The position numbers were made by a program, and so were the translations under genes. Source: a virus. From it: a DNA stretch of 27,829 nt. Shown here piece after piece: positions 3,001-27,505 of the stretch. Location of the stretch: positions 1-27,829 of the IMG/VR virus record IMGVR_UViG_3300027917_000151; one strand, 5' to 3'. Below the pieces are notes generated by a model that was not told where the DNA came from, made no database searches, and saw only the letters and a list, made by a program, of their open reading frames with translations. Every line of letters begins with the position of its first letter. Position 1 is the stretch's first letter.

Positions 3001-6000
3001 TTGAATTATGAAAAGAATAATTTTGTTGACATAAGATCTGTTGGATCTGGTACTCATACATTTAAGTATCCAGAAATCCATGTAAGTATTGATGTAATCT
3101 CTGGAGTTGCAAATACTTCTATTTCAACACCAGTTATTAGATCTTTCTGTTCTGGATCTATAAGTAATGTACATCTTACAAGTGTTGGTGCTGGTTATGG
3201 TGTTAGTGATACCTTTAATCTGCATAGAAGACCTGATGTAACCATTTCTAATGGTAGTGGTGCAGAACTTGATGTTGTAGTTGTTAATGGTGAGATTGAC
3301 CAAGTTTTAATCAGGTCTGGTGGAAAGGGTTATGTTAGCCCTCCAACTTTAACTATTGAAGGTGAGGGTAAGTATGCAAAGGTTGTACCAACTCTTACTA
3401 ATGGGGTAATAACTTCTGTAAGTATTGTTGATAGAGGAAAATCATATGTTCAAGGCAGCACTTCAATAAGAGTATCGACTGTTGGAAGTGGTGTCAAACT
3501 TAGAGCCGATGTTAAAAAGTGGGAAGTTGATTTTGTACAGAGATACAAGAAAACTTGTAATGAAAATGATGACGGGATTATCGTCCCAAGTCAAAATGTA
3601 AATTATGGTAGTAAGTATGTCCATGGATATCTTTCAAGAAAATTAAGAACTATTCTTAACGATAACATCAATAGTAATTTTACTGAGAAGTCTACTCTTG
3701 CTCACTCACCTATTGTTGGTTGGGCTTATGATGGATCACCAATTTATGGCCCATATGGTTACGATACTGTAACTGGAGGAACAATTCGTAGAATGGTTCC
3801 AAGTTATACTTTGGAATCAAAATCTAATAGACCTCCAACATCACTATATCCACTTGGTTTCTTTGTAAACGATTGGAATTATACTGCTAATGGTGATCTT
3901 GATGAATACAATGGTAGATTCTGCAAAACTCCAGAGTATCCAAATGGAGTATATGCATACTTCTGTACTATAAACGGAACGAACAGTTCACAATCTCCAT
4001 TCCTAAACAATAGAGAACCTCTATTCCCATATATTTTGAATGGATATAAATTTGATAAAAATAGATTTAATGAAAATCCAGCATCTATTCAAAATCTCCC
4101 CCTCTTGAATAGTGGAGATCTGGTAAGAAATACTTATCCATATAAACTTGGATTCAACCAGTCTAAGTATGATTACTTTATTACCAATAACCTGAATGAT
4201 ACTGAAGTAACAGTAAAATCAATCAAACCTGTGGGTATTGATCAAGTTTCTGTAATTGGTGGTGGTAATAATTATAAAGTTAATGAAAAACTGATATTTA
4301 ACAATCAAGGATCTGGTGGTAATTCAGTATCGGCTAGGATTAAATCAGTAGTTGGTAAAGGAATCACACAAATTTCTTATTCAGAGACAAAAATTTCTAA
4401 CGTCGCATTCAATTATGCAAATCAAGTTGTAACTGGTATTGCAACAACTTCACATGGACTATCCAATAATGATATTGTTGTTGTAAGTGGTATTGGAACT
4501 GGTGAATTGAAGTTTATTGAGGGGCCAAGAACTATTGCCGTTTCCTCAGTAACTGCTAGATTGGATGTTGGAATTGCCACTGTTGGGGCAACTGGAGTTA
4601 CTACATCAATTACTTTGGAGTTGTCGTCTTCATCTAAAGGAATTGACGTAGATGATATTCTGGTTATTGGATCTACTCCAGAAAGACTTCGCGTTCTTTC
4701 CGTTGATAGAACGGCTAACAAATATAGAGTTCGTCGTCAATCTGGAATTGTAACGTCACATGCCGCTGGTGAATCATTGGTAGTGGATCAAAGAAAGTTC
4801 ACTTTCATTGTGGGTGTTAAGACTGATCTTTCCATAAACACAAACAGAAAGATTGTATTCAATCCACAAGATTCTATCGGTGTTGGTACTGAATCTGTTG
4901 TTAAGACTGTTGTTGGTGTTGGTACAACAGTTGTAGTGAGAGTAAAATCTAATGATGGAACAATTCTTACAAACCATCAATTACCTCCATCTGGATCTAC
5001 TGCAGATAATAGTATTAGTATTACTAATCATGGATTTAGAACGGGTCAAAAATTAGTTTACAGTAAGGGATCTGCTGGAATAGCTCTAACTGTATCAAAT
5101 AATTTGAATCTTTCAAATCCATTTGATCTCATCGAAGGTCAAACTGTATATGCAGTAAATAAAGGTCAAAATTTACTTGGTATTACAACTACGTTAGCTG
5201 GAATTGGAACCACTTCAACTTCTTTGTATTTCTTACCCGTTCAAAACAATACTGGATTTGAACATTCCTTTACAACAAGGAATACTGAATACTCTGGAAC
5301 AGTTAAGAAATATGATGTGATCGTAGGCACTTCTACTAATCATGGACTTGCAACTAATGATCAAGTAACTGTAAATGTCATTCCAACATCGACAGTTTCA
5401 AAATCTATTGAGTATGATTCTAATTCTAGAAAAACCATTGTTGATCCAAAATACTTTGGAACGGCATCTGTAGGTGTTGGTACATCACTCTCTACTATTA
5501 CAATTTCTAATCATGATTTTGAGAGTGGTGATAAAGTTCTGTATATTTCGTCTAATCCAGCGTCACCTCTTGTTAATAAAGGCGAATACTATGTTAAGAA
5601 AATCGATGATGATGTATTCAAGTTAACCACAAATTACATTGATGCAACAACATTTAATTCTCCTTATATTGGAATCACTACATTTGGATCTGGAATTCAC
5701 AAAATTGCAAAAATCAATCCAAGAATTGTAGCAACTAGAGGAAGAACGATCGGTTTTGCTGTATCAGATACTAGTTTGTCAGATCTAAGACTTGAGTTCT
5801 TTGAGGATCAAAACTTTGTTAACCGATACAATGGTTTTGGTATTAGTACTGAGGTAACTAGAACTGGAACTACAGGATCTTCGGGAGCTATTGTAAATCT
5901 TAAGTTATCCGATAATGTTCCATCTACGTTATATTATAGACTCGTTCCAAAAAATCTTGGTTCCATTGGTGTTGATAAGAGAGACACTAATCCTGATAAG

Positions 6001-9000
6001 GATGTTTTAAATGGGTCTATTATCCAAGTTGTCGATAGTGCATTCTCTGGAACCTTTAATATTAAGAAAACTTCAAATACACAATTCAAATATCAAGTTA
6101 AAAAAGAACCCGAATCATCTTCTTATGCATCATCTGGTATATCTACATTCCAATATGTAACAAAATCATCTTCGGCTGATGGCCCAATTGATGTTGTTGA
6201 TGTTACTTTCTCTGGATCTGGTTATACAAACACTCCAGGAATTACCTCCGTCACAACAACTTCTGGAAGTAATTCTATTCTTAGAGTATTCTCTGATAAT
6301 ATTGGAAATTCTCAATTTGATGAGGTAACAAAAATTGGATTTGATTATCCATCGGATAAGTCCTTAAAACCATCAGTTGACATTCCTTCACTTGTTACAA
6401 TTTCAAAAAATTATAAAATTACTGAAGTTGGAGTTGTTACAACTGGTAGAAATTACCTTTCTGCGCCAGATGTTATAGTCGTTGGTAGACCAGACATCTC
6501 CCTTCGTGCAAATCTCAATGGATCATCTATTGATTCTGTTGATATTTTGAGTCCTGCTATAGGTTTTGAAAATATTGGTAATCCAGCAAAAGTGGTTGCT
6601 ATTAGAAACAGTAATGGTGTTGGTGTTGTTACTGCAAGCTCAAATGGGGTTACCAATTTTATCACGATTACACAACCCACAAATGGTTGGAGACCAGATG
6701 GAACAGATTTCCCATTCTTGGTAGGTGATAGAATTTTTGTTGAAAATGTTAACACTAGAGAAACTTCCTTCTCTTCTGGTGGTGGTTATAACTCAGAAAA
6801 CTATGATTATGCCTTCTTTACAATTACGACCAGAAATCCATCAACTTCCCAAATTACTTATTCCATATCTGGAATTGGAACCTCAGGTGGTACATTTGAC
6901 CTAGACAATAGTGCAGGAAGAGTTATTAAACAACGTGATCTACCTACATTTAGTGTAAAACTAGATGTTACTGAGTTTCTTTCTGGTGAAAAAGTAACGT
7001 ATTCTTCCAACGGTGTTGGAAAACTTTCCATCAATGGTGGATACAACTCAGTAACAAATGCATTAAGAGTTGAAAATACGAATACGCCAATATTAAATGG
7101 ATATGTAATTAAAGGATCTATTTCTGGATCTGAGGGAACTGTTGTTGATGTAAAATCATATGAAAGATTCTTTGAGACTGGATATAAGGCCAGAAGACCA
7201 AAGGGTTGGCAAAATGATAGTGGTAAGTTGAATGAAACTTTCCAGAGACTGCAAGATAATGATTATTATCAAAATTTTGCATACTCAATTAAGAGTGAAG
7301 TTCAAGAAACTACTTGGAAAGATGCCGTTGAGAGTATCATTCACCCAGCTGGATATAAGAAGTTCTCCGATTTGATTGTACCTTCTTCTTCAACTCCTGG
7401 ATTTGGTAGAAGTACAACTCTTGAAATCAAAGACTCTTCACCTCCTGGATCCGTATCACTTACGGTACAAATTGATAATTTGAAATCTCTCTATGAGAAA
7501 GATGATTTTGATATCGCCACGGAAGAAACCATTGCTAATGGTTTATCCAAGTACATCTTATTCTCAAATAAAAAAATTACTGAAGGTGTCACTGTTATCA
7601 GTAACAAAGTTGAGATTATTGATGATATTTCTGGACAATTCACTGGTATTGGAACGACAACAAGTGCTTTAGTAGTTGGTCTTACCTCATTCAAACTTAC
7701 CACATTTAATGGAACAAAGATACCTTTCAATAAGGTGTTTGATGGATCAGATTCTACGATTGTTTCTGCTGGTTCTTCAATCATTAGAATCAATGATCAC
7801 GATTTCCAGACTGGTGAAAGAATTGTTTATGATCCAGGAAATGCGATTTATGGAAATAACAGAATTGGTATTGAGACAACAACAACGGTTGTTGGGGGAG
7901 TCTCTACTAACTTCTTACCTAGAGACCTTTTTGCGATTAGAATTGACAACAACAACCTTAAGTTAGCAGGTTTAAGTACCGCATCGGGGAATAATGATCC
8001 TCTGGTATTCCGTTCTGTTGGAACTGGTACATCACATTCATTCGATGTTGATCAACCATTTAATAGAGTTTTGATTGAGATTGATAACATCATTCAATCT
8101 CCACTTTATAAGAAGAATGTTGATGTTGCCCTCGATGAAGCAGTCGGTGTTGGATCCACAACAATTAAAGTTGTTGGAGTCACCTCAATTCGTGGTAATA
8201 ACATTCTTCAAATTAATGATGAACTTCTAAGAATCAATGTTGTTGGATTTGGTTCCACAAACGTACTTGAAGTAGAACGTGCAGTTCTTGGTAGTGTTGC
8301 TGCAGCTCACACCGTTGGAGCCGCTGTAACGATGATGGGTGGAGATTATCGCATCATCAAGGATGTTATTCACTTCATTTCTCCACCATATGGCCCAGTT
8401 GGTGTAAGTACTTTACAACCAGGTATTTCCACACATTCTAGTTTTGCAGGTCGTATCTTCTACAGAGAGGATCCTTCAACCAACTTTATTTTTGATGATA
8501 TCTCTAATAGATTTACTGGAGTTGGTAAGACTTTCACTTTACTTGAAAATAATCAAGATGTAACTGGAATTGTAACTACAAAATCTGGTGGTGGTGGAAA
8601 TGATGAAGTAATAAACAATGGTATTGTTCTTATTAACAACATCTTCCAAAGACCAACTGTTGATTACAGTATGACCGAAAGGTCAACCCCAGGTATCGGG
8701 GCCTCAATTATTTTCACAGGAGATGACAGAGAAAGTCTTCCTAGAGGTGGAATTGTTGATCAAGTTAAAGTTGGATTTGGATCTGGATATCAAAACTTAG
8801 TTTCTGCTGCAGCCACTGCTATTATTAATGGTGCTGGATCGATTGAATCGGTTGTGGTAACTGGAGGAGGATCTGGTTATAGATCATCCAATTCTGTGTA
8901 CATTCAAGTGTTCAATCCACTTGGAATTGGATCAACTGCTGTTCTTTCTGCAACGGTTGGTTCTGCAGGAACTGTATCTGGAATTACTACCGTAAGTGGT

Positions 9001-11703
9001 GGTTCTGGATATGCATCTACAAATCCACCAACCATTGTCGTCGGTATTCCTACTGGATATTCAAATATGTCCTTTACTGGCGGTCAAGGCAGTGGTTTTG
9101 AAGCAACTGTCACTGTAGGTGTTGGTGGTAGTATTATTGATTTTGACATTACAAATCGGGGTATTGGATATGAAAATGGTGATGTATTAACAGTTGCAGG
9201 TATTCCTACCGATCCAAATGTTGGCGTTGCGTTCAGTACTTTCACATTTACTGTTGATCAAACGACTGATGACGAGTTTGCTGGATATAGTTTTGGTCAA
9301 CTCTTACCTCTTTATAACTTCTCTGGTGAATTTAATGGAATACGAAAGTCATTTACATTGAGACGTGATGTAACTCGTCAAATTATTAATTTTACATCCG
9401 ATGACCCAACAATTAAGATTGAGAATAACTTTATCATCGTTCTTAACGATGTAGTACAAAAACCAAAAGAAAATTATGTTCTTGAAAGTCCAACAAAGGT
9501 AAGATTTACTGAAGCTCCAAAATCTGGTAGCAAACTTCAAATTCTGTTCTACAGAGGTTCAAATACCGATATTGATTCTACAACTCCATTTGCAACCGTT
9601 AAGATTGGTGATGAACTTCAATTGCAGAGAGAAGGTAACTACGGAATACAACTGGATAGAACTATCACCGATATTGTTGGTATTGATAAGGTTGAAACGA
9701 ATCTTTATGGAAACGTTGGTATCAATACAGATCCTACATTTGAAAGAGCTGTTTCATGGACAAAACAAACTAGAGATTTGATTTTAAATGGACAACCATT
9801 ATCAAAGGCTAGAGATAGTTTGATTGCAAAGGTACAGCCAACTACAAGACTTATCCAGAATGTTGGTATCAACTCCAATCAAATTTTCGTTGAGAATGCT
9901 TTCCCACTCTTTAGTGCTTATGACAATCGTTCTTTGAGAAATAATGTTCCTGGTAAAGGTATCACCTTAATTGCCGAAAATAACATTGATCAAGCCTCTG
10001 GCACAGTAGTAGTTTCTAGTGGTGGAACAGTTTCCTCTGTGAACATTGTTGATCCTGGTCTTGGGTATGTAAATGCACCTACGGTTTCATTTGCAACTTC
10101 ATACATACAGATCAAGGAAATTGGCAGAACCTGGACTCAATCCAGTTCAAATACCGATATTGACTATCAAGATGTAACACATTCTGCTGGTATTTTTGTT
10201 GCTGTTGGAAGTACTTCTGGCATCAATACATCAACCGATGGAGTTACTTGGAATGATACTGGTGTTAGTGGATTTGGAACCTTCTTTGGAGTTGATAAAG
10301 CTTCAACAACTTCTACAAGTGTTGTTGCTGTCGGTCTTGGTGGCACCATTGCAGTAAGTAGTGATTTATCAACATTCAATAGTTCTAGAACTTATCGTAG
10401 AACTTTGAATGGATTCTTACTCTCATTTACTGACATAACAATTCCGCAAGATCTTAATGGTTATGCTGGAGGAAAAACAAAGGGTGTCGCTGTGGGTGCA
10501 GCTGGAACCGTTCTGTTTACCCCGAATGGGCCATCTGGTTTTGGTACTTCCTTCATTCTTGCAAACAAAGCAACAACGCAAAATCTTCGTGGAGTTGGTA
10601 GTAATGAAGACACCTTTATTGCGGTAGGTGATAATGGTGCGATTATTAGGTCAATTAATGGTGAAACTTGGTCTGGTGCGTCAAGTGCATCAGTTACAAC
10701 TAGATTAAATGACGTTTACTTCAGTGATAATAAGTGGATTGCTGTTGGTGCTGCTGGATCTATCATCCAATCGACAGATAATGGTTTGAATTGGAGTGTT
10801 GTTTCTTCTGGTTCTACATTCAATCTCAACTCTGTTTATTATACTGGTAATGTTTGGGTTGCGGTTGGACAAACTGGAATGGCCATGAATTCATTGGATG
10901 GTACTTCTTGGTATAAGAAGTTTATTGGTGTTGGTACAGATTACAATGGACTGGCATATGCAGATCAAAAGTTAGTTGCTGTGGGACTCTCATCAAACAT
11001 TGCCATCAGTTCTCCTGAAACTGTATCCGCTGCGGCTACCGCTACGGTTTCTGCTGCAGGAACAATCTCATCAATCACCATTAATGATGGTGGATTTGGT
11101 TATGATTCAACAAAACCAGTTAATCTCATAATCGCATCAGAAGCAGTTACGATTGAGAGAATTACAAGTGTTGAGTGTGAAGGTGACTTTGGATATGTAG
11201 TTGGAGTTGGAACAAGTGCATCTGGTATTGGAACCACCAGCCCAATGGTTAAGTTTGAACTTGATTCAAGTCCTTTCCTTAATCAGGCTGGTTTTGGTAA
11301 CATTCAAAAGAGTGCAATTCAAGCTGGTTACTACTTCGTTATTACTGGATCTGTTGTTGGTAATGGATTAACTTCAATTACCATAGGTGATAATCCTATT
11401 GGTGTTGGAACAACTTTCATTGATAATGTTTATCGTGCAGATGAAGTTGTTACTTCGTCTTCTGGTATTGTAACTGTCCACTCTAACGTTAGATCTTTGG
11501 CAGGACTTGGAACAACAAGTCTTTCACCAAAAATTGGTAATTACAGTTGGGGAAGATTCTACAACTTCACCAGAGATCCTCTAAATCCTGGAACATTCAC
11601 CATTAACAATCAAAATGGATACACTGGATTAACAACCGCTCCAGTTGTTAATCGTATTCTAAAATTGGGTGAAAATTACAGTGATTTTACAGAGACTTTA
11701 TAA
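34..11703 (+). CDS. 7: Giant baseplate wedge protein in the gp7 position, with YHYH and beta-propeller domains (3889 aa)
   Basis: This is probably the baseplate wedge initiator equivalent to T4 gp7, which is about 1030 residues, so this protein is nearly four times longer. Residues 1-240 form a conserved-looking N-terminal region (SFIQEESPLFIDFLSQYY, then FLRQAKDFYASKGTSEAIKI). Residues about 1165-1345 resemble a YHYH-type domain, with HSPIVGWAYDGSPIYGPYGY from residue 1224, DLDEYNGR from 1288 and TPEYPNGVYAYF ending at 1310. A second conserved-looking segment lies near residues 2405-2445 (RLQDNDYYQNFAYSIKSEV, HPAGYKKF). Residues about 3367-3660 hold Asp-box-like repeats (STDGVTWN, SINGETW, STDNGLNW, SLDGTSW), suggesting a beta-propeller. 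Most of the rest consists of short beta modules with GGSGY or NHGF signatures and G(V/I)GTTS linkers. It lies between the gp6 tail and gp8. The ATG overlaps the upstream stop. Placement as gp7 rests on synteny and N-terminal resemblance; domain functions are inferred. Confidence 0.8.
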   Translation: MIDTASKKVQINQIVRSQLPSFIQEESPLFIDFLSQYYLSQEYQGGPIDIITNFNEYQKTETFSGNTNLIGFTTCTSAVASYDDTINVTSTDGWPKTYGLLKIGNEIITYTGITTNSFTGCIRGFSGIENLHKPNETEKLVFSSSEASNHTSNTKVENLSNLFLQEFWDKTKKQFLPGFENRKLNDAVDKANFLRQAKDFYASKGTSEAIKILFNVLYNKRADIVKPIEYLFTPSNADYVVTDDFVAELISGNPLNVIGQTLYQTNNDGASGAIFNVQRYTKNDREYYIISLSKESETGSFVVTGSSTLLKNVAIGATVISVDSTLGFGNTGSIYVGAGQTVGIATYTNRSSTQFFGVTGITSSYSDGEFVRGSRTIFAYENGDITKPVYFRLTSVVSGVDLDGVGYLLSNDLLKPKSLGKLSSPTNYRLNSWLHNLKTKTNVAKNLDNKSIIDTTTNIVTTVDPHLLKLDDSVTLVDESSAIPSNVEGTVSQIINSTQFKVNISSGSVNTSKTYSVRRNLTFASSNSTTINVSQFLSGVQNTYLNLEGDKFYVTSGSLPFYKIYATSRRKSFTSSNVSGTRIDITNHEFYTGDTVKYYPVGGAEIGGLSTGTEYVVRKINDDTISLSNSKIDAYSKRFISLSTQNAGTNHIIVPADLARKNVQYQNFLREFDVTPKPKKNDRPFQNETIGMFVNGVEIFSNRSGDVIYNGSLDSIDVENGGSGYDVINPPNIHIKDSVGSGATAFAVVENGSFKSIDITYRGFDIKQVPSVNITGGNGSGAKASARLRLEKNVKNFDADFDVNTTNNRIKFPSNHLFFNGESVIYKKSTRFAAVGGLVDGSLYYVHKVDDTKIQLMNTREDALTGNNPINLTSRSTGSNTLTTTTQRNVLDNVIIENPGSGYSNRKSVVNSVVYPPTSLSAEIRSGINTSSDYIYFRDHGFNSGDLVNYSTTGSVIEGLSSSVNYQIIKIDRNKFRLADAGIGTTSTTLNYEKNNFVDIRSVGSGTHTFKYPEIHVSIDVISGVANTSISTPVIRSFCSGSISNVHLTSVGAGYGVSDTFNLHRRPDVTISNGSGAELDVVVVNGEIDQVLIRSGGKGYVSPPTLTIEGEGKYAKVVPTLTNGVITSVSIVDRGKSYVQGSTSIRVSTVGSGVKLRADVKKWEVDFVQRYKKTCNENDDGIIVPSQNVNYGSKYVHGYLSRKLRTILNDNINSNFTEKSTLAHSPIVGWAYDGSPIYGPYGYDTVTGGTIRRMVPSYTLESKSNRPPTSLYPLGFFVNDWNYTANGDLDEYNGRFCKTPEYPNGVYAYFCTINGTNSSQSPFLNNREPLFPYILNGYKFDKNRFNENPASIQNLPLLNSGDLVRNTYPYKLGFNQSKYDYFITNNLNDTEVTVKSIKPVGIDQVSVIGGGNNYKVNEKLIFNNQGSGGNSVSARIKSVVGKGITQISYSETKISNVAFNYANQVVTGIATTSHGLSNNDIVVVSGIGTGELKFIEGPRTIAVSSVTARLDVGIATVGATGVTTSITLELSSSSKGIDVDDILVIGSTPERLRVLSVDRTANKYRVRRQSGIVTSHAAGESLVVDQRKFTFIVGVKTDLSINTNRKIVFNPQDSIGVGTESVVKTVVGVGTTVVVRVKSNDGTILTNHQLPPSGSTADNSISITNHGFRTGQKLVYSKGSAGIALTVSNNLNLSNPFDLIEGQTVYAVNKGQNLLGITTTLAGIGTTSTSLYFLPVQNNTGFEHSFTTRNTEYSGTVKKYDVIVGTSTNHGLATNDQVTVNVIPTSTVSKSIEYDSNSRKTIVDPKYFGTASVGVGTSLSTITISNHDFESGDKVLYISSNPASPLVNKGEYYVKKIDDDVFKLTTNYIDATTFNSPYIGITTFGSGIHKIAKINPRIVATRGRTIGFAVSDTSLSDLRLEFFEDQNFVNRYNGFGISTEVTRTGTTGSSGAIVNLKLSDNVPSTLYYRLVPKNLGSIGVDKRDTNPDKDVLNGSIIQVVDSAFSGTFNIKKTSNTQFKYQVKKEPESSSYASSGISTFQYVTKSSSADGPIDVVDVTFSGSGYTNTPGITSVTTTSGSNSILRVFSDNIGNSQFDEVTKIGFDYPSDKSLKPSVDIPSLVTISKNYKITEVGVVTTGRNYLSAPDVIVVGRPDISLRANLNGSSIDSVDILSPAIGFENIGNPAKVVAIRNSNGVGVVTASSNGVTNFITITQPTNGWRPDGTDFPFLVGDRIFVENVNTRETSFSSGGGYNSENYDYAFFTITTRNPSTSQITYSISGIGTSGGTFDLDNSAGRVIKQRDLPTFSVKLDVTEFLSGEKVTYSSNGVGKLSINGGYNSVTNALRVENTNTPILNGYVIKGSISGSEGTVVDVKSYERFFETGYKARRPKGWQNDSGKLNETFQRLQDNDYYQNFAYSIKSEVQETTWKDAVESIIHPAGYKKFSDLIVPSSSTPGFGRSTTLEIKDSSPPGSVSLTVQIDNLKSLYEKDDFDIATEETIANGLSKYILFSNKKITEGVTVISNKVEIIDDISGQFTGIGTTTSALVVGLTSFKLTTFNGTKIPFNKVFDGSDSTIVSAGSSIIRINDHDFQTGERIVYDPGNAIYGNNRIGIETTTTVVGGVSTNFLPRDLFAIRIDNNNLKLAGLSTASGNNDPLVFRSVGTGTSHSFDVDQPFNRVLIEIDNIIQSPLYKKNVDVALDEAVGVGSTTIKVVGVTSIRGNNILQINDELLRINVVGFGSTNVLEVERAVLGSVAAAHTVGAAVTMMGGDYRIIKDVIHFISPPYGPVGVSTLQPGISTHSSFAGRIFYREDPSTNFIFDDISNRFTGVGKTFTLLENNQDVTGIVTTKSGGGGNDEVINNGIVLINNIFQRPTVDYSMTERSTPGIGASIIFTGDDRESLPRGGIVDQVKVGFGSGYQNLVSAAATAIINGAGSIESVVVTGGGSGYRSSNSVYIQVFNPLGIGSTAVLSATVGSAGTVSGITTVSGGSGYASTNPPTIVVGIPTGYSNMSFTGGQGSGFEATVTVGVGGSIIDFDITNRGIGYENGDVLTVAGIPTDPNVGVAFSTFTFTVDQTTDDEFAGYSFGQLLPLYNFSGEFNGIRKSFTLRRDVTRQIINFTSDDPTIKIENNFIIVLNDVVQKPKENYVLESPTKVRFTEAPKSGSKLQILFYRGSNTDIDSTTPFATVKIGDELQLQREGNYGIQLDRTITDIVGIDKVETNLYGNVGINTDPTFERAVSWTKQTRDLILNGQPLSKARDSLIAKVQPTTRLIQNVGINSNQIFVENAFPLFSAYDNRSLRNNVPGKGITLIAENNIDQASGTVVVSSGGTVSSVNIVDPGLGYVNAPTVSFATSYIQIKEIGRTWTQSSSNTDIDYQDVTHSAGIFVAVGSTSGINTSTDGVTWNDTGVSGFGTFFGVDKASTTSTSVVAVGLGGTIAVSSDLSTFNSSRTYRRTLNGFLLSFTDITIPQDLNGYAGGKTKGVAVGAAGTVLFTPNGPSGFGTSFILANKATTQNLRGVGSNEDTFIAVGDNGAIIRSINGETWSGASSASVTTRLNDVYFSDNKWIAVGAAGSIIQSTDNGLNWSVVSSGSTFNLNSVYYTGNVWVAVGQTGMAMNSLDGTSWYKKFIGVGTDYNGLAYADQKLVAVGLSSNIAISSPETVSAAATATVSAAGTISSITINDGGFGYDSTKPVNLIIASEAVTIERITSVECEGDFGYVVGVGTSASGIGTTSPMVKFELDSSPFLNQAGFGNIQKSAIQAGYYFVITGSVVGNGLTSITIGDNPIGVGTTFIDNVYRADEVVTSSSGIVTVHSNVRSLAGLGTTSLSPKIGNYSWGRFYNFTRDPLNPGTFTINNQNGYTGLTTAPVVNRILKLGENYSDFTETL
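1971..2001. repeat. Perfect 11-bp inverted repeat within gp7
   Basis: TGCAGGAACAA (1971-1981) and its exact complement TTGTTCCTGCA (1991-2001) flank a 9-base loop. It lies within the coding sequence, at the end of a NHGF-type module, where a random perfect 11-bp palindrome with a short loop is uncommon. It could form an mRNA hairpin; no T run follows it. Confidence 0.6.
8760..9235 (+). repeat. GGSGY module array in the C-terminal third of gp7
   Basis: Four related units follow one another: VKVGFGSGYQN, VVVTGGGSGYRSS, TTVSGGSGYASTNPPTIVV and FDITNRGIGYENGDVL, each followed by Gly/Ala-rich strands. Other single or paired copies occur near 2185-2400, 3150-3520, 4230-4345, 6190-6530, 10000-10100 and 11070-11130. 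They probably form repeated small beta domains. Confidence 0.7.
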
Positions 11704-11736: not shown

Positions 11737-13341
11737 ATGCCTGCGATTATTTCAGATCAATTTAGAATATTAAATGCTGCGAATTTTGTCGCTGGTGTAG
11801 CTGACACTTCCCAGTCATATTATACTTTTATTGGACTTCCAAATTCTGGCGATGTTGGTGCTGGATATGGTACTACGGATTGGAACACCATCACTCCAGC
11901 ACCCAAAGACAGTTTTAGAGAATATAATGATGATTATGATACCCTGATTGCTCTTAAAAAACTCACTACTAGTGACGTAAAAAGACTGGTGAGAAAATAT
12001 TCATGGACATCGGGAACTGTCTATGAAATGTATAAAAATAATTATACAAGATCAAATCTAAGTCCCCAAACAGGGTCTACAAACTTATATGATGCCAAGT
12101 ATTATGTTGTAAACAGTTCATTTAGGGTTTATCTCTGTATTAATAACGGAGCTAATCCATCAAATCCTAACGGGAATCGTTCACTTGATGAGCCAACGTT
12201 TACTGGTCTTGAACCAAGAACTGCGGGAACAAGTGGTGATGGATATCTCTGGAAATATTTGTATACTATCAATCCATCAGACATTATCAAGTTTGATTCA
12301 ATTGATTACATTCCAGTTCCATCAAATTGGGGAACAGGAGACAGTGCGGATGTAAAAAATAGTGCAATTGATGGAAAAATTGAAACTGCCTTGATTGTAA
12401 ATGCAGGTGGTGGATATCAACCAATTTCAACTACATTTTCAAATATTCCTATTCTTGGTGACGGAACTGGTGGTAAGGCTAGCGTAACCGTTGACTCTCA
12501 AGGAAAAGTTTCTAATGTTTCCATTACAAATGGTGGTAATGGATATACTAGAGGAACTATTCAATTCTATCCAGGAGCTCCAGGATCCGAAACTGGTGGC
12601 CCTATTTCTGGACTTTCTGCCGTTGGAGTTGGTACAACATCTGTAGCAGAGTTCGAAGTTATAACTCCTCCTCCAGGAGGACATGGATTTGACATTTATA
12701 AAGAACTTGGTGCATTTAGAGTTCTTTTATATTCTCGTTTTGAGAATGATGCGACCAATCCAGATTTTATCACTGGTAATGATTTTGCCAGAGTAGGTGT
12801 AATTAAAGATCCACTCACTCCCGCAGGTAATTTATTAACTCAGTCAAAAGCAAGTGGATTAACTGCCATAAAACTCACAAGTTTAACTGGTGGTAACATT
12901 GCGGATACGACATACACAGTGGACACTCCAGTTTTCCAACAAATTGGTGTTGGATCCACCGCTGTTGGTTATGTGGCTAACTGGGATTCATCTACTGGTG
13001 TATTGAAAGTTTACAATCCAGTTGGACTCGCTTCAACTTCTTATGGATTTAGACTCGTAGATTTTGCATCACAAATTGGTGCTGGTGGAACTTATGTTAT
13101 TAGTGGTCAGTCCTCTGGAGCTGCACTTGGCATTGAAACAAGTTTTGGTAGTGCATCAAATCCAGGGACTGCGACTACAGTTGGTAATGCCACTGTTCAG
13201 TTGGGACAGAGTTTTGTGGATGGCATTGCTCAACCTGAGGTCAAAAAATATTCTGGTGAGGTCTTATACATAGATAACAGGGCCTCAATCCAGCGTAGTG
13301 CCACCCAGAAAGAAGACATTAAAATCGTATTAGAGTTCTAA
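11737..13341 (+). CDS. 8: Baseplate wedge subunit gp8 (534 aa)
   Basis: This is a structural subunit of the baseplate wedge that joins gp7 and gp10 in T4. The N-terminal 200 residues are typical of cyanophage gp8: MPAIISDQFRILNAANFV, then FREYNDDYDTLIALKKL, then the DGYLWKYLYTI segment and YIPVPSNW. T4 gp8 is 334 residues. The extra length here lies largely in a beta-rich part after residue 215 that contains two GGxGY modules (LIVNAGGGYQ and SITNGGNGYTRG) and, further on, a GYVANWDSSTGVLKVYNP stretch resembling a module in gp14. The end (SIQRSATQKEDIKIVLEF) looks like a phage structural core again. It follows its own late promoter and lies 4 bases before the next gene. The ATG at 11737 was chosen because the conserved N-terminus starts there. 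Confidence 0.9.
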   Translation: MPAIISDQFRILNAANFVAGVADTSQSYYTFIGLPNSGDVGAGYGTTDWNTITPAPKDSFREYNDDYDTLIALKKLTTSDVKRLVRKYSWTSGTVYEMYKNNYTRSNLSPQTGSTNLYDAKYYVVNSSFRVYLCINNGANPSNPNGNRSLDEPTFTGLEPRTAGTSGDGYLWKYLYTINPSDIIKFDSIDYIPVPSNWGTGDSADVKNSAIDGKIETALIVNAGGGYQPISTTFSNIPILGDGTGGKASVTVDSQGKVSNVSITNGGNGYTRGTIQFYPGAPGSETGGPISGLSAVGVGTTSVAEFEVITPPPGGHGFDIYKELGAFRVLLYSRFENDATNPDFITGNDFARVGVIKDPLTPAGNLLTQSKASGLTAIKLTSLTGGNIADTTYTVDTPVFQQIGVGSTAVGYVANWDSSTGVLKVYNPVGLASTSYGFRLVDFASQIGAGGTYVISGQSSGAALGIETSFGSASNPGTATTVGNATVQLGQSFVDGIAQPEVKKYSGEVLYIDNRASIQRSATQKEDIKIVLEF

Positions 13342-19300: not shown

Positions 19301-20824
19301 GGTATTATCTCTGCAACTAACAGTTTGATCTTGGATAGAGTTCAGGGTGAGTTTACAACAACTTCTGAATTGATGACAATCAATGCTGTTGGTGTTGGTT
19401 CTACATTAGTTGGATCACAACCAACAACAATTAGTAACACTGAAACATATAAGGATGGTTTACATGTCAAGGTCAATCACAGAAACCATGGTATGCATTC
19501 CAGAAATAACAGAGTTACAATCTCTGGTGCAGTTGGTGTAACTACAACAACCACTGTTTCTACAGAATATTCAAATACTTCGACTACGGACTTGGATGTT
19601 GCATCCGTATCTGTATTCTCCAGTTTTGAAAATGTTGGAGTTTCTTCTACAAATCCAGGATATGTAAAAATTAATAATGAAATCATTGGATACACTGGTG
19701 TCAATATTTCTGCAACACCACAAAAACTTACTGGTATTACCAGAGGTGTTGATAATACAACTGCAGAAACTCACAAGGTTGGAGACATTGTTCAAAAATA
19801 TGAAGCTTCTGGAATTTCTCTAAGAAGAATTAACAAGACGCATTCTTTTGGTAATGTTAACAATTCTAATGAAATCACTCTCGATAGTTACTTTATTAAG
19901 ATTGATACCACAAGTTCTGGAGTTGGAACCGTTAGAGATGGAACCAATAGTTTCCGTAAGTTGAAAGTTGCAGAAACCGAAATCAATGGTGGCAACAAAG
20001 TTAAGGCATCTCAAAACATTCAGTTTGAAGCCATTACACCACTCGTTGAGGTTCTTAATACTAAGGACACTTCTTTATCTGCAAGAGTTAGAACTGTAAG
20101 TGGAACCAGTGTGGATGGAAGTGAGACATCATTCCGTGATCAGGGATTTGAAAATGTGACTTTGAATGGCATTAATTACTTCAATACTCCAAGAGTTATT
20201 GCTTCTAAGGTAAACGAACAGAATCAACTGTCTTCTCTCCCAGGAAACAAATCTTTCACCATGGAATTAGTTCTTGGTAGTGAAAATCAAAATGTTTCTC
20301 CAGTGATTGATCTGGATAGACTGTTGGTCATTGCTACTACAAATAGACTGGATCAAAGAATTACAAATTATCCAGATGATGAGAGAGTGAATGATAGATT
20401 CTCCGATCCAAATGCTGCTGTTTATGTTACCAAGAAAGTAAATCTTGAAAATCCAGCCACATTCCTCCAAGTTAAATTTGATGCCTTTAGACATCAATCG
20501 AATGATATTAGAGTTCTCTATAGACTCTTTAGACCAGATACTCCAACAAAAGAGTCCCAATATGAACTCTTCCCTGGATATAATAATTTGACTGATACCA
20601 CTGGTGACGGATATGGTGATAAGGTTATTGATCCAAAATTAAATAATGGTAGACCCGATAAATTTGTACCAGACTCTAAGACAAATAGTGACTTCCGTTA
20701 TTATCAATTTACTGCTTCTAATCTCCCAGAATTCACTGGATTTGAAATTAAGGTGATTATGACAGGAACCAATCAATCCTATGTCCCAAGAATTAGAGAT
20801 TTTAGAGCGATTGCATTTGCATAA
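13346..20824 (+). CDS. Giant virion structural protein, DUF4815-type (2492 aa), in the gp9/gp10 region
   Basis: This is a large tail or baseplate protein common in cyanomyoviruses. The N-terminus (NVSPYYDDFNDDKNFNRVLF, then QARELTQLQSILQNQIEKFG and FFKEGAMVIPGQIAYD) has the look of DUF4815 proteins. A conserved middle part contains MFDISRLENRLQNVEFYTQL from residue 1111 and, further on, NPFGVINWIGTVALNPASDVW. Beyond it is a probable beta-sandwich (QNQWCNPLAQSFEV, then KEYALVLLSA). A tract at about residues 1910-2150 carries GGSGY, NHGM and RGVDNTTAETHKVG modules shared with gp7. The C-terminus (FRYYQFTASNLPEFTGFEIK, ending RIRDFRAIAFA) looks conserved. By position it replaces T4 gp9, gp10 and gp11, so a role in the peripheral baseplate or fibre attachment is likely but unproven. 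It starts 5 bases after the gp8 stop and its own stop overlaps the next ATG. Confidence 0.8.
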   Translation: MHQETNLNVSPYYDDFNDDKNFNRVLFKPATPVQARELTQLQSILQNQIEKFGQHFFKEGAMVIPGQIAYDPQYYAVQVNESFLGIPVADYLENVVGKVIRGSVSGVEATVVNYVLAENSDRGTNTLYVKYSRSGNDFSKEVFDDGENLISSTDIEFGISRISANNPFASCISSGATSTGSAAAVEEGVYFIRGFFVKVPTQTIILDQYDSSPNYRVGLFVSGNIVTAYDDPSLFDNASGFSNEAAPGADRFQILTTLIKKGLDEFNDENFVELMRLENGRIQKFVRKTDYSLLRDELARRTYDESGDYYVKPFQVKVVESLNNRQGNGGIYLPEQKTAEGGDPSDDLMLYQVSPGKAYVRGYGIEKLNTSYIDVEKPRDVKNISSSSFVFDGVSNLKINNVYGSPLVGFGTTAVVSLRSERIGSTASSAAGIEIGNARVYDYKLEASSYSNDASKYDLYLYDLQTFTTVTVSSNLTQSTPAYIEGVRSGAKGFLKNNVTSSQSLTLTSTNGQFMVDEPIKINGILDTRVVTSVREYGLNDVKSIHQTVGINTFNADSLLSDRFLLAPPGTNFTIGASGVTTAPGNRFGVGINTGDIVTYNRNGFSDPTFNRVGNISADGSTITLVSLGASVSGVCDGGLTTTEIQTSDFTLVRPRLVNAKNSSLVTKLPNGFISNVDLDNSEIQIRKQFVLNVANNRGTVTISNIDQFFQPFDEERYNLVFSNGTVESLDSQKITFDASFKTATLLGLSVATDTNAILVATVKKINVKEQSKSLSRCNKLVVSRSKYDYSGSTGTTVNNGLTFNSVYGTRVEDNEICLNVPDGLRVHAIFESSTTGDPALPKVTLINRSEDLTNTLQGEILIGRTSGAVARVVTSSATNVDIVYVNELRYSVGETVTFQSSGITGEVSTVTAGDKNIANDFMFDNGQRDEFYDYARIIRKSNSQEPKRKLAIIFDHYTVDSGSSGDFGTVNTYLTENYKNDLPSFKNEPISDYLDIRPRVRNYDTGSDTGSPFEYDQRDFSSDGSYVNNILVPDETVTVGYSYYLGRIDRIFLSKDGFFELKKGAPAEVPVAPENPSGSFTVATIFNNPYLRNATAESSVVLAKHKRYTMFDISRLENRLQNVEFYTQLSLLETDTANLNIKDVSTGLDRFKSGFFVDNFRSHNSHAITHPNFRSSIDRVNAELRPLHYTHGIDLLLGSEQVIGIGTTANPSADLTQVSDLQSNALRKTGDVVTLNYTETTFIEQKFTTRTENVNPFGVINWIGTVALNPASDVWVDEKRLDITNIKLESNYQEFLDSYNLDPNVGFSPIDWGSWEEEWKSVDISTKQLSANSNSQNSNRYGSRCRNKNVSTVNQLLSFNEETTDAERGLTRVQIGSDDGVNTQSLGDRLISKERIPYIRSRNIEFVSNRLKPRTRFYVFFDDQDVTKYVTPKLLEIEMVQGVFQIGETVKGTISNSEVLGGSSPEITFRVAQPNHKYGSYNSPSLVYAINPYNDGVGISTVYSATSSLLNIDTASLQAEVLGSFSGYASQNMRLVGQTSGAEATVSNFRLISDEKGTLIGSLYVPDSTLPTVPQFTTGVKTFRITSSSVNSLSSSDAPSTAESSFYAEGVLDTIQQDAIGVRNCNIQRETSTDSTLTSDTVNRTVDTKNFENRISVQNQWCNPLAQSFEVAEESGVFVSSCDIYFSSKDDTIPVTLQIRTVQTGQPTNSILPFAEVVYESSQVNVSTDGTLATRFTFPSPVYLAGGKEYALVLLSASKNYQVYISRMGEVDTSSLTLPESERTIVSQQPYTGSLFKSQNGSTWDPSQLEDLKFKLNKCQFVSGPGTLKLYNPELGVGRLENANLRPQPLEFYSHEIKVGFGSTVITRDFSAGSRFTQVGNTSAEGHLVKSLGAIKINTSATEAGGITTNRVGTGLTPSASNFTFTGIALTTITGNGSGAVANIQVSSGSIGIVTVTNGGSGYAVGDVLGCTLGETGTGTRFNVGIISATNSLILDRVQGEFTTTSELMTINAVGVGSTLVGSQPTTISNTETYKDGLHVKVNHRNHGMHSRNNRVTISGAVGVTTTTTVSTEYSNTSTTDLDVASVSVFSSFENVGVSSTNPGYVKINNEIIGYTGVNISATPQKLTGITRGVDNTTAETHKVGDIVQKYEASGISLRRINKTHSFGNVNNSNEITLDSYFIKIDTTSSGVGTVRDGTNSFRKLKVAETEINGGNKVKASQNIQFEAITPLVEVLNTKDTSLSARVRTVSGTSVDGSETSFRDQGFENVTLNGINYFNTPRVIASKVNEQNQLSSLPGNKSFTMELVLGSENQNVSPVIDLDRLLVIATTNRLDQRITNYPDDERVNDRFSDPNAAVYVTKKVNLENPATFLQVKFDAFRHQSNDIRVLYRLFRPDTPTKESQYELFPGYNNLTDTTGDGYGDKVIDPKLNNGRPDKFVPDSKTNSDFRYYQFTASNLPEFTGFEIKVIMTGTNQSYVPRIRDFRAIAFA

Positions 20825-23860: not shown

Positions 23861-24988
23861 ATGGCAAAACCTAGCACTAGACAAGAACTTATTGACTATT
23901 GCCTAAGGCAGCTGGGTGAGCCTGTTTTGGAAATTAACGTCGATGATGATCAGATTGATGATCTTGTCGATGATGCAATTCAATATTTCCAAGAAAGACA
24001 TTTTGATGGTGTTGAGAGGATGTATCTCAAACACCGAATAAATCAGGATGACATTGATGAATCCAGAAGCAATACCGTATCTACGGTTGGGTTTTCATCC
24101 AATGTCTTCAATGGAGAGAGATCTTCCATTGTTAGTGTTAGTGCAAACAATATTACCATTCCAAACCACGGTCTAATTACTGGATCTCCCGTTTACTATA
24201 ATTTTGCTGGGACTGGACATACTTCCATCGGCATCGTAACCACTTCTGTTGCTGGTGTTGGTACTACATCTTTCTTGGGTGTATCTACAACCAGTGTTCA
24301 GTATTATGCAATTGCAGATAATAAAAATCAAATTAGACTTGCAACTAGTAAATCAAACGCATCAAGTGGTGTAGCCGTTACATTTAGTTCTGTTGGTGTT
24401 GGATCAACACACTTTATTAGTACAAGAACTGAATTTACAGAGGCAAGAAATTATATCGAAATTCCAGATCATGTTATTGGAATCAATGGTATCTTCAGGT
24501 TTGATGATAATACCATTACCCAAAACATGTTCAGTATTTCATATCAAATTTTCCTGAATGATGTTTATAACTTTAGTTCTATTGAGATGTTGACATACTC
24601 AATGACTAAAGAATATCTAGAAACGATCCAATTCCTTATAAGTCCAGATAAGAAAATTAGATATAACAAACGCGGAAATAGGTTGTATCTAGACTTGGAT
24701 TGGCAAGGAGTTTCATCTGACGAATATATTGTCATTGATTGTTTCCGTGTTTTGGATCCATCCGAAAACGAAAGAGTTTATAACGATAGTTTCCTGAAAA
24801 AGTATCTAACTGCACTGATCAAGAAACAATGGGGTCAAAACATGAGTAAGTACAGTGGAGTTAAACTCCCTGGTGGTATTGAATTGAATGGTCGTCAAAT
24901 CTATGAAGATGCTCTAAGGGAGTTGGCAGAAATTCAACAAAGAATGACCTTTGATTATGAACTTCCTCCTCTTGACATGATCGGCTAA
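23861..24988 (+). CDS. 13: Neck protein gp13 with an internal module (375 aa)
   Basis: This is the head-completion (neck) protein that seals the filled capsid with gp14 and lets the tail attach. The N-terminus (PSTRQELIDYCLRQLGEPVL, then VDDDQIDDLVDDAIQYFQER) and the C-terminal half (YSMTKEYLETIQFL, LYLDLDW, then KKYLTALIKKQWGQNMSKY and IYEDALRELAEIQQR) are typical of gp13 in T4-like phages. Between them, about residues 72-190 form a beta-type module with IPNHGLITGSPVYYN, VQYYAIADNKNQIRLA and GVGSTHFI, like modules in the giant gp7. T4 gp13 is 309 residues. If the module is removed, a compact core of about 260 residues remains. An AGGAAG sequence precedes the ATG at a rather long distance. 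The stop overlaps the gp14 start. Confidence 0.9.
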   Translation: MAKPSTRQELIDYCLRQLGEPVLEINVDDDQIDDLVDDAIQYFQERHFDGVERMYLKHRINQDDIDESRSNTVSTVGFSSNVFNGERSSIVSVSANNITIPNHGLITGSPVYYNFAGTGHTSIGIVTTSVAGVGTTSFLGVSTTSVQYYAIADNKNQIRLATSKSNASSGVAVTFSSVGVGSTHFISTRTEFTEARNYIEIPDHVIGINGIFRFDDNTITQNMFSISYQIFLNDVYNFSSIEMLTYSMTKEYLETIQFLISPDKKIRYNKRGNRLYLDLDWQGVSSDEYIVIDCFRVLDPSENERVYNDSFLKKYLTALIKKQWGQNMSKYSGVKLPGGIELNGRQIYEDALRELAEIQQRMTFDYELPPLDMIG

Positions 24989-26409
24989 TGGCTTTAAATC
25001 CATTCTTTCTACAAGGTTCTCCTGGAGAACAAAGATTAGTTCAAGACCTCATCAACGAACAGTTGAGAATGTATGGGGTTGATATCTATTACATGCCCAG
25101 AGAATATCTGGGAACTAAAACAGTTATCAAAGAAAACGTTTTAGCTAAATTTGAAGATAACTTCATCATTGAAGCATATGTTCAAAATTATGAAGGTTTC
25201 CAGGGATCTGGAGATTTGATGACTAAGTTTGGAATTAGAACAACTGACGAATTAACTCTTGTTATTTCCAAAGAGAGATTTGAAGACTTTATCTCTCCAT
25301 TTAGTATGGATCTATTGGCAACTAGACCAAAAGAAGGAGACTTAATATATTTTCCACTATCCGATAGTCTTTTCGAAATCAAGTTTGTAGAACACGAGAA
25401 TCCATTCTATCAACTTGGAAAACTTTACATGTATCAACTTACATGTGAGTTGTTTGAATATGAAGATGAAGTAATTGATACGTCAATCGAAGAAATCGAT
25501 GATAATGTTCAAAATATTGGATATATTGCAACACTCACATTAGCTGGAATTGGTCAAACAGCAGAGGCATCAACAACTCTTGTTGATGGTTCAGTAAATC
25601 AAATTATTTTGGTCAATGATGGATATGGATACACTAGTCCACCCGCAGTTTCTATCTCAACTTCACCAAACGGTAGTTCTACTGCAAATGCAACTGCAGT
25701 TGCTATTACAACAAGTAATACTGGATCTGGATCCACTACCTTCTCCGTGAAAGAGGTTCAAATCACCAATCCTGGATTTGGCTATACACAACCCCCAACA
25801 ATCGTTTTCAGTGGTGCTGGCGGGTCTGGGGCAAGTGCAAGGGCGGGTATTGGTACTAAGGGTGTGGTTAAGATACTCAATATCTACAATCCTGGAGCAC
25901 AATACGCTACACCTCCAGTTGTATCAATCTCAACTTCTCCAACTGGTCTTTCTACCGCTAATGCTACTGCTGTTGCGGTTGTAAGTGCTGGTGGAACTAT
26001 CGCACAAATTAGACTTACCAATGCGGGATTTGGGTATACTTTGGCACCAACTATTACTATTGCAGCGCCATCTGCTGGTGGTTCTGGTGTTGGAACTGGA
26101 AACTTTGTTATCAACGAAGTTATTACTGGAGAGAGTTCTCTTTCCACTGCCCGTGTTAAGTCTTGGGATAAAGATACAAGAATTCTCAAGATATCAAATC
26201 TTGCTGGTACGTTTGCCCTTGGCGAAATTATTGTTGGAAGTGCGACAACATTCTCAACACCAGGTATCGGAACAACTGCAAGATATGCAGTTAAGTCAAT
26301 ACAATATGATGATCAATATGACACATATGCGGAAAATATTATTATTGAAAATGAAGCTGATGGTGGAATTCTTGACTTTACAGAGACCAATCCATTTGGT
26401 ACTTTCTAA
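24988..26409 (+). CDS. 14: Neck protein gp14 with a GxGY repeat insertion (473 aa)
   Basis: This is the partner of gp13 in the neck, needed to join head and tail. Residues 1-170 (GSPGEQRLVQDLINEQLRMY, VDIYYMPREYLG, then FEIKFVEHENPFYQLGKLY and YQLTCELFEYEDE) and the end (EADGGILDFTETNPFGTF) form the conserved gp14 core. T4 gp14 is 256 residues, so this one is almost twice as long. The extra part, about residues 190-430, contains four copies of a GxGYxxPPxVxI module, then an ITGESSLSTARVKSWDKDT unit, before the conserved C-terminus returns. The insertion would probably lie on the outer surface of the neck. The ATG shares an A with the gp13 stop. Confidence 0.9.
   Translation: MALNPFFLQGSPGEQRLVQDLINEQLRMYGVDIYYMPREYLGTKTVIKENVLAKFEDNFIIEAYVQNYEGFQGSGDLMTKFGIRTTDELTLVISKERFEDFISPFSMDLLATRPKEGDLIYFPLSDSLFEIKFVEHENPFYQLGKLYMYQLTCELFEYEDEVIDTSIEEIDDNVQNIGYIATLTLAGIGQTAEASTTLVDGSVNQIILVNDGYGYTSPPAVSISTSPNGSSTANATAVAITTSNTGSGSTTFSVKEVQITNPGFGYTQPPTIVFSGAGGSGASARAGIGTKGVVKILNIYNPGAQYATPPVVSISTSPTGLSTANATAVAVVSAGGTIAQIRLTNAGFGYTLAPTITIAAPSAGGSGVGTGNFVINEVITGESSLSTARVKSWDKDTRILKISNLAGTFALGEIIVGSATTFSTPGIGTTARYAVKSIQYDDQYDTYAENIIIENEADGGILDFTETNPFGTF
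25600..26070 (+). repeat. Four-copy GxGYxxPP module array inside gp14
   Basis: The copies lie near 25600-25707 (NDGYGYTSPPAV), 25757-25830 (NPGFGYTQPPTI), 25867-25981 (NPGAQYATPPVV) and 26008-26070 (NAGFGYTLAPTI). The stretches 25648-25707 and 25921-25980 encode twenty residues each. I count 17 of 20 identical at the protein level and 48 of 60 at the DNA level, pointing to internal duplication. The same module recurs in gp7, gp8 and the DUF4815 protein. Confidence 0.8.
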
Positions 26410-26412
26410 ATA
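26405..26412 (+). promoter_or_regulatory. Candidate late promoter before gp15
   Basis: TCTAAATA matches seven of the eight bases of the late box TATAAATA. It overlaps the gp14 stop codon and ends 13 bases before the gp15 ATG, closer than in the two perfect promoters. It includes the 9-mer CTAAATAGT also found before gp13. Confidence 0.35.
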
Positions 26413-26425
26413 GTTAGAAAAAATC

Positions 26426-27505
26426 ATGATTGGCCAGTATTTTTATCACGAGATCCTAAGAAAAACCGTTATTGGTTTTGGAACTCTGTTTAACCAAATT
26501 GAAATTCGTCACTCTGATGATAATGATAATGTACAGAGTAGGATGAAGGTGCCACTGGCTTATGGCCCAATGCAAAAGTTTTTGGCCAAAATTGAACAAC
26601 AACCCCAATTAAAAGGAAGGGCTGCGATTACTCTTCCTCGTATGTCTTTTGAGATGACGGGTATTTCATATGATCCTTCAAGAAAAGCTTCTATTACTCA
26701 AACATTTAAAACTTGCAATACTGGTGAGTTAGGGAACATCAAAAAGGTTTATATGCCTGTTCCTTATAACATTAATTTTCAGTTGAGTATTGCTACCAAG
26801 TTAAATGATGACATGTTGCAAATTTTGGAACAAATTCTTCCATATTTCCAACCTGGATTGAACATCACAATTAATCTTGTTTCATCAATTGGTGAAAAGA
26901 GAGATGTTCCAATTATTCTTGAGAACATCAATATGACGGACGATTATGAGGGAAGTTTTGATAATCGTCGTGCGATGATCAGTACCCTCACATTTACTGC
27001 AAAATCTTATCTGTTTGGTAAGATTGCTGATAACTCTGATGGTCTTATCAAAAGAGTTCAAATTGATATGTTTGATGATACCAATAAAGTCACCGCTAGG
27101 AGAATTCAGAGATACGCTGCAACTCCAAGGGCTATTAAAGACTATAATGATGATGCAACCACGGCTATTAATCAAGATCTAGCCGCAGAACAAACCCTAC
27201 TCTCAGTTAACAGTGCATCAGGACTTAGCGTTGACGATTACATTGTTATTAATAGTGAGAACATGCAAATCCGTTCCATCAGCGGAAACGATGTCACCGT
27301 TTATAGAGGAGTTGATGGAACTACCGTATCTGATCATGTTGCTGGATCTATTGTAAATATTATTAGTGGAACTAGAACTCCAGATCTACCTCTAACTGGC
27401 GATGATAATCTCATTGTTGCTGGCGATGACTTTGGATTTAATGAACTAACATCCTTCTATCAAGACTATAAGGATTATTCTCCATCACAAGGAACTGATG
27501 TTTAA
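26426..27505 (+). CDS. 15: Tail sheath stabiliser / tail completion protein gp15 (359 aa)
   Basis: This forms the hexameric ring at the top of the tail that stabilises the contracted or extended sheath and joins the tail to the neck. The sequence (MIGQYFYHEILRKTVIGFGT, LFNQIEIRH, VPLAYGPMQKFLAKIEQQP, LPRMSFEMTGISYDPSRK, then YMPVPYNINFQLSIATK and FTAKSYLFGKI) is a clear gp15. T4 gp15 is 272 residues. The extra length lies near the C-terminus at about residues 252-313, a module with SASGLSVDDYIVINSENMQI and YRGVDGTTVSDHVAGSIV that resembles modules in gp7 and the DUF4815 protein. The end (DDFGFNELTSFYQDYKDYSP) looks conserved. It starts 16 bases after the gp14 stop. Confidence 0.9.
   Translation: MIGQYFYHEILRKTVIGFGTLFNQIEIRHSDDNDNVQSRMKVPLAYGPMQKFLAKIEQQPQLKGRAAITLPRMSFEMTGISYDPSRKASITQTFKTCNTGELGNIKKVYMPVPYNINFQLSIATKLNDDMLQILEQILPYFQPGLNITINLVSSIGEKRDVPIILENINMTDDYEGSFDNRRAMISTLTFTAKSYLFGKIADNSDGLIKRVQIDMFDDTNKVTARRIQRYAATPRAIKDYNDDATTAINQDLAAEQTLLSVNSASGLSVDDYIVINSENMQIRSISGNDVTVYRGVDGTTVSDHVAGSIVNIISGTRTPDLPLTGDDNLIVAGDDFGFNELTSFYQDYKDYSPSQGTDV

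Follow-up and report, generated by a model that had tools for sequence, protein, structure and literature searches.

Neck proteins are usually regarded as conserved plumbing. Domain additions on neck and tail proteins are already known (PMC6669499, PMC9230969, PMC10684548). In the lactococcal 936 phages carbohydrate-binding decorations occur on Dit, on the major tail protein (MTP) extension TpeX and on the neck passage structure, so that one kind of domain sits on several structural proteins, those of the neck included, in some relatives only (PMC6669499). Domain shuffling in phage structural proteins, again including neck passage structures, is described as an ongoing exchange at a constant position in the protein (PMC10684548). 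In contractile tail sheaths the conserved core is extended by β-domains on the outer face of the tail, with adhesion or stability as proposed roles (PMC9230969; T4 gp18 domain I, PMC3004832), and the T4 neck adaptor bears external appendages, the fibritin whiskers and collar on domain III of gp13 (PMC12270204). Here we describe gp13, gp14 and gp15, the neck and tail-completion proteins of a marine T4-like cyanophage represented by the IMG/VR virus record IMGVR_UViG_3300027917_000151 (27,829 bases, analysed whole and called the window). Each has a T4-type core with an additional module, and the motifs named in an earlier note on this DNA are all present: NHGxxTG in gp13 (module A), GxGYxxPP repeats in gp14 (module B) and the INxE...RG..GT..H type in gp15 (module C).

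The 936 decorations are BppA-like carbohydrate-binding modules (CBMs), two of which have been shown to bind host cells (PMC6669499), whereas the cyanophage modules comprise three or more unrelated kinds, belong to no recognised CBM family, lie inside T4-type gp13, gp14 and gp15 and are not known to bind. The text found in the shuffling work (PMC10684548) describes neither gp13–gp15 of T4-like cyanophages nor one set of modules across neck, terminator, sheath and baseplate. Fibritin is a separate fibre protein in T4; in the cyanophage, by contrast, an inserted domain occupies another gp13 site. We found no description of modules in cyanophage gp13–gp15 shared with the giant baseplate protein gp7 in the open-access literature.

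Insertions in the cores of gp13, gp14 and gp15

The three proteins are T4-type by family models, by the solved T4 structures and by fold. gp13 corresponds to T4 gp13, the head–tail adaptor Ad2, in sequence and in fold (Z 15.2, but with a root-mean-square deviation, r.m.s.d., of 15.5 owing to domain shifts in a model with a predicted local distance difference test score, pLDDT, of 63). gp14 corresponds to T4 gp14, the head closure protein Hc2 (PF11649, 124.7 bits against a cut-off of 25; Z 11.5, r.m.s.d. 4.0, 106 aligned residues), and gp15 to T4 gp15, the tail sheath stabiliser (PF16724, 293.6 bits against a cut-off of 25; T4 gp15 E 1.7e-23). The nearest named relatives at gp13–gp15 are two Synechococcus phages that are listed as Kanaloavirus, S-CAM9 and S-8S56; S-PRM1 (Makelovirus) is a further close one for gp14 and gp15. 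The claim that all three proteins are longer than in T4 is borne out by the open reading frames and the T4 record: 375, 473 and 359 residues against 309, 256 and 272.

Our sample comprised 308 IMG/VR loci around gp13 and gp15 homologues, with 283 complete gp13, 278 complete gp14 and 247 complete gp15 sequences; the counts are not independent, since several of the loci share a contig or are almost the same. At the gp13 site 243 loci have no module (267–292 residues), 33 have A (374–375 residues, A being present in 33/33) and seven have other inserts, four B-like (L097, L148, L162 and L164) and three of a TTDFT type (L086, L091 and L238). The A motif of the window gp13 is PNHGLITG at residue 101. 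Searched with just the B profile, the inserts of L097, L148, L162 and L164 stayed above an independent E-value (iE) of 0.01; they are named B-like because a reverse search with their own profile matched gp7 (2.5e-7) and gp14 (4e-5). The TTDFT module of L086 has matches in two records only. Core identity to module-free orthologues is 80% for L086 (against L239), 77% for L097 (against L163) and 72% for the window gp13, whose nearest such orthologue is L094.

The gp15 site is empty in 111 of the 247 loci (263–284 residues) and filled in 136 (329–359 residues), by C in 133 and by A in three (L086, L238 and L241), where the flanks are unchanged. In the window the C motif reads INSENMQIRSISGNDVTVYRGVDGTTVSDHVAG. 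Comparison by hhalign of the gp15-site A modules gave P 98.9 and E 2.6e-17 against the gp7 A copies, and P 96.6 and E 5.6e-10 against gp13 A. The pair L241 and module-free L240 differs by an exact insert of 87 residues, at 66% core identity. The same core thus occurs with no module, with the same module or with another, and these are therefore real insertions. The proposal that the surplus lies within a typical core stands, and so does that of interchangeable modules. The strongest evidence is the varied filling of one site: the gp13 site takes A, a B-like module, the TTDFT type or none, and the gp15 site C, A or none.

By eye, the gp15 insertion site in module-free relatives (L141, L097, L240) resembles an EF-hand/dockerin-type loop (D.NNDGVIN..DD), the module entering right after DYN.D; the location is gp15 residues 236–245 and 330–345 (window about 27131–27160 and 27413–27460).

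The gp14 repeats are not peculiar to this phage: 273 of the 278 gp14 sequences have them. The repeat number, taken from profile counts that supersede regular-expression counts, ranges from 0 (five sequences) to 9, four being commonest; it spans 4 to 8 inside one clade, and S-CAM9 has eight units against four in the window. The window motifs are GYGYTSPP (residue 212), GFGYTQPP (263), a degenerate GAQYATPP (303) and GFGYTLAP (347). Among the three modules only that of gp13 is clade-specific, A being found there in the window clade. The extra regions of gp13 and gp15 are neither present in all relatives nor integral to the core. For gp14 the refuting case named in the earlier note, extra regions shared by all relatives and built into the core, applies in part: the repeats are near-universal, yet they are absent from five sequences and are predicted to form a confident block off the C-terminal barrel.

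The gp14 model has an overall pLDDT of 69.8 and a predicted template-modelling score (pTM) of 0.48, and the repeat block and barrel were the parts used. Residues 181–370 have pLDDT block means of 66–94, mostly above 80, with a low-confidence linker between repeats and core; in this prediction the repeats fold autonomously and confidently. VIA matched model residues 177–442 (about 178–190 with 367–442) to EF-Tu/eIF2-γ domain III-like barrels at a middling Z of 5–6, and to 9f4a at Z 7.9. Because of these barrel-like matches, and because the same region is retained in repeat-free gp14s, the model suggests that the B repeats are an excursion from a small gp14 barrel. VIA returned no match limited to the B repeats, which does not mark their fold as new; in a Foldseek search of the PDB T4 gp14 was the sole match below E 0.001, and BFVD matches were chiefly to neck and large structural proteins, at low TM-scores. 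For gp13 (50 rows in the prediction; pLDDT 62.9, pTM 0.47) the insert is mostly below 60 and the model was not used for the fold of A; a profile search of the PDB with A gave a best E of 0.25.

On a tree of 92 non-redundant three-core sets there are at least four state changes for gp13, at least nine for gp15 and at least 11 for gp14 (by length class); the tree was built quickly, with no mixture model, and excludes 24 loci in which no core motif turned up. Module conservation falls below core conservation in 103/105 (gp13), 115/120 (gp14) and 113/120 (gp15) pairs from the window clade; these pairs share history. In gp13 and gp14 synonymous divergence too is higher in the modules, and recombination or alignment effects therefore contribute. 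The many gains and losses, the patchy distribution and the higher amino-acid divergence would all fit a process in which recombination spreads mobile β-modules among large structural genes, where they are kept if harmless and have no selected function. We consider this unlikely, since C is kept by over half and the gp14 repeats by nearly all lineages, the E, V, R and H positions of C are invariant across 44 diverse copies, and the open reading frames are always intact.

Against L001, identity is 96% in each of the two parts of the window gp14 and 92% in the gp13 core, but only 64% in the gp13 module; this hints at a recombination breakpoint close to the border between the two genes.

Copies in the baseplate proteins

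Module A of gp13 is shared with gp7 and tail fibres. Its best gp7 match (residues 2567–2668) has an iE of 1.1e-9 in an 18-sequence search and 3.5e-4 against all collected open reading frames plus decoys. The profile–profile comparison suggested by the earlier note, run with hhalign between the gp13 inserts and six gp7 A copies, gave P 95.1% and E 3e-8, which favours a common origin of the two sets. The baseplate-wedge family phrog_2885 likewise matches gp13 residues 81–205 (E 9.6e-17). A B profile trained on gp14 sequences from other phages detects four units in the window gp14 and seven in the window gp7 (iE<0.05, best 2.6e-7). For C, a profile built from gp15s alone already matches gp7 residues 2692–2759; the iterated profile was seeded from gp15s and iterated on the collected loci, the window included. 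The supposed repetition of these kinds in gp7 and the DUF4815 protein therefore stands in full for gp7, which has A, B and C, and for C at least in the DUF4815 protein. Beyond what had been claimed, gp8 also bears B-like repeats. The T4 proteins of the region gave no match to A, B or C. A MAFFT alignment of the gp7 C copies alone was poor and was not used. A YHYH domain (PF14240, E 1.2e-24) lies among the modules at gp7 residues 1218–1314 (window 3685–3978).

Repeats rich in Gly, Thr and Ser could in principle match by chance: the modules have a high content of G, T, S and V, and single-copy matches can be weak, as is that of A to gp7 in the large set. Convergence or composition as the source of the likeness was rejected on the decoys and is very improbable. 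No reversed or shuffled sequence matched at the thresholds used, be it with the B profile or with the iterated C profile; there is no match between the A and the C profile, which makes these separate families and not a compositional blur; and independent libraries agree, as the phrog_2885 match shows. For annotation, it follows that matches between neck and baseplate families (phrog_2885 on gp13, phrog_460 on gp8) stem from shared modules and not from orthology.

Position on the virion and possible roles

On the T4 alignment the gp13 site falls at about residues 62–100, inside the swing domain (52–192), of which the peripheral ring of the T4 gp13 dodecamer is made (PMC12270204). In gp15 the site comes after about residue 243, immediately past the gp14-binding segment 203–245 of T4; in gp14 the repeats belong to the C-terminal region. 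C is also found in annotated tail sheaths (P-RSM6, P-TIM40, S-WAM1 and S-SZBM1). The P-RSM6 gp18 (L337:2219-5017, 932 residues) has tandem copies at 102–156 and 179–234 (iE ∼1e-15) whose alignment puts them where T4 gp18 has its domain I, residues 98–188 (PMC3004832); unlike in the sheaths described before, this place is filled by modules of the gp15 kind. By analogy with the T4 neck and sheath structures, the modules would project outward from neck and tail.

The most likely reading, which we put forward tentatively, is auxiliary adhesion by surface decorations. The T4-type cores of gp13, gp14 and gp15 are retained to build the head–tail connection, each offering a permissive site where small β-modules enter, swap or drop out; gp7 holds the same modules as tandem repeats, tail fibres have them too, and so do the tail sheaths of other cyanophages. 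Displayed on the surface of neck and tail, they may act as auxiliary low-affinity adhesins toward the cell surface, glycans or particles. In favour of this reading are the shared profiles with clean decoys, the different modules at one site, the number of state changes, the faster divergence of the modules, the confident separate block of gp14 repeats, the place of the gp13 site in the ring-forming swing domain, the C copies in the P-RSM6 sheath and the matches of C given next but one. More broadly, it is possible that T4-like cyanophages have standard sockets on the outside of the head–tail axis (gp13, gp14, gp15, gp18 and gp7/gp8/gp10), filled from one common pool of β-modules, so that decoration changes without touching the assembly cores.

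Among PDB entries the C profile matches 8vjh, a minor tail protein with two copies (E 3.5e-11), 9k4a, a capsule K1 depolymerase in which just the first half of the module is covered (E 3.6e-5), and 8rk3, a tip attachment protein (E 0.016). These are host-facing proteins, yet the C-like domain need not be their binding part. C thus has sequence similarity to the siphophage tip proteins and to the K1-lyase Rider domain (PF24149), but the latter covers half of C and scores 15.5 bits on the window copy, under the Pfam gathering cut-off of 27; of 44 C copies, ten match it at E up to 0.1, the best at 0.0036. Pfam gave no Ig match on the modules or long gp14s, a negative that covers sequence families and leaves room for an Ig-like fold of A and C, whose models lack confidence.

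Several points weigh against adhesion. The faster divergence of the modules fits relaxed constraint as well as adaptation. No Pfam carbohydrate-binding family was found on any module or on ten long gp14s, a result compatible with an undescribed CBM. The carbohydrate-binding module of the neck fibre of cyanophage A-1(L) showed no host binding (PMC10966104). Finally, the gp14 C-terminal region and gp15 residues 203–245 touch in T4 (PMC12270204), and the gp14 and gp15 modules could by analogy sit at an internal junction.

This last point bears also on structural reinforcement, which we rank second, ahead of tolerated shuffling, and regard as possible but rather doubtful. The modules would touch adjacent subunits, fibres or the capsid and would make neck and tail stiffer or seal them, in place of the fibritin collar that T4 has on gp13. 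Consistent with this, the anchor of the swing domain that holds the gp13 site meets the portal and gp23 in T4, and the gp15 site and the gp14 repeats lie at or beside the regions through which gp14 and gp15 bind each other (PMC12270204). The fibritin-binding domain III (T4 gp13 190–239) is mostly without a counterpart in the cyanophage sequence alignment, although a remnant may be hidden by the weakness of the gp13 model, and the gp14 repeats are near-universal. However, close module-free orthologues persist (77–80% core identity), gp14 repeat number varies twofold within one clade, and unrelated modules fill one site, a pattern more in keeping with display than with a fitted joint.

If the modules are displayed, as auxiliary adhesion would have it, then abundant marine T4-like phages have a decorated neck and tail whose surface evolves through the exchange of domains, with a bearing on the adsorption and host range of Synechococcus and Prochlorococcus phages. 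The idea is testable, as the gp13 module is present in phages already in culture (S-CAM9, S-8S53, S-8S55 and S-8S56).

Features of the window

Table 1. Neck proteins, modules and module copies in the window, by position.
Feature	Position	Strand	Basis
C copy, gp7 residues 73–128	250..417	+	iE 2.8e-11
gp7 region with five further A copies (1738–2022, 2446–2721, 2785–3081, 4930–5340, 5443–5721)	1738..5721	+	profile matching gp13 and gp15 A modules
B repeats, gp7 residues 713–786	2170..2391	+	iE 2.6e-7, 1.1e-4
B repeats, gp7 residues 1042–1130	3157..3423	+	iE 0.024, 4.3e-5
A copy, gp7 residues 2567–2668, best match to gp13 insert	7732..8037	+	iE 1.1e-9 (18-sequence search), 3.5e-4 (large set)
C copy, gp7 residues 2699–2759, directly after A copy	8128..8310	+	iE 2.7e-7 (iterated profile)
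B repeat, gp7 residues 3332–3356	10027..10101	+	iE 5.4e-6
B-like repeats, gp8 residues 209–430	12361..13026	+	phrog_460 (gp14 family) E 8.1e-6; BLAST with gp14 repeats 4e-5; gp13 B-like profile 4e-4
C copy, DUF4815 (gp10-like) protein residues 2068–2143	19547..19774	+	iE 6e-17 iterated; weak un-iterated (iE 0.034)
gp13, head–tail adaptor (T4 neck protein), 375 residues	23861..24988	+	phrog_211 E 1.7e-45; T4 gp13 sequence E 1.2e-17; fold Z 15.2
A module (NHGxxTG type), gp13 residues 87–188, in region aligning to T4 swing domain	24119..24424	+	profiles; 243/283 orthologues without
gp14, head closure (T4 neck protein), 473 residues	24988..26409	+	PF11649 E 5.7e-36; T4 gp14 fold Z 11.5 over model residues 24–159
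B module, four GxGYxxPP repeats of about 42–46 residues, gp14 residues 202–366, predicted single confident β-block	25591..26085	+	profile units 202–244, 253–293, 297–334, 337–383
gp14 C-terminal barrel region, residues 367–440, pairing in the model with about 178–190	26086..26307	+	VIA barrel matches; retained in repeat-free 288-residue gp14s
gp15, tail terminator/sheath stabiliser, 359 residues	26426..27505	+	PF16724 E 1.2e-87, residues 5–243
C module (INxE...RG..GT..H type), gp15 residues 244–313, between core and conserved C-terminal tail	27155..27364	+	profiles; 111/247 orthologues without; A instead in L086/L238/L241

The gp14 of L141 (6601–9663) has 1021 residues and many repeats; a concanavalin/LamG-looking stretch spotted in it by eye was not confirmed by Pfam and was not used. 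Directly upstream of gp13 in the window, at 21670–23643, a fibre-like repeat protein of 657 residues stands where T4 has its whisker gene wac.

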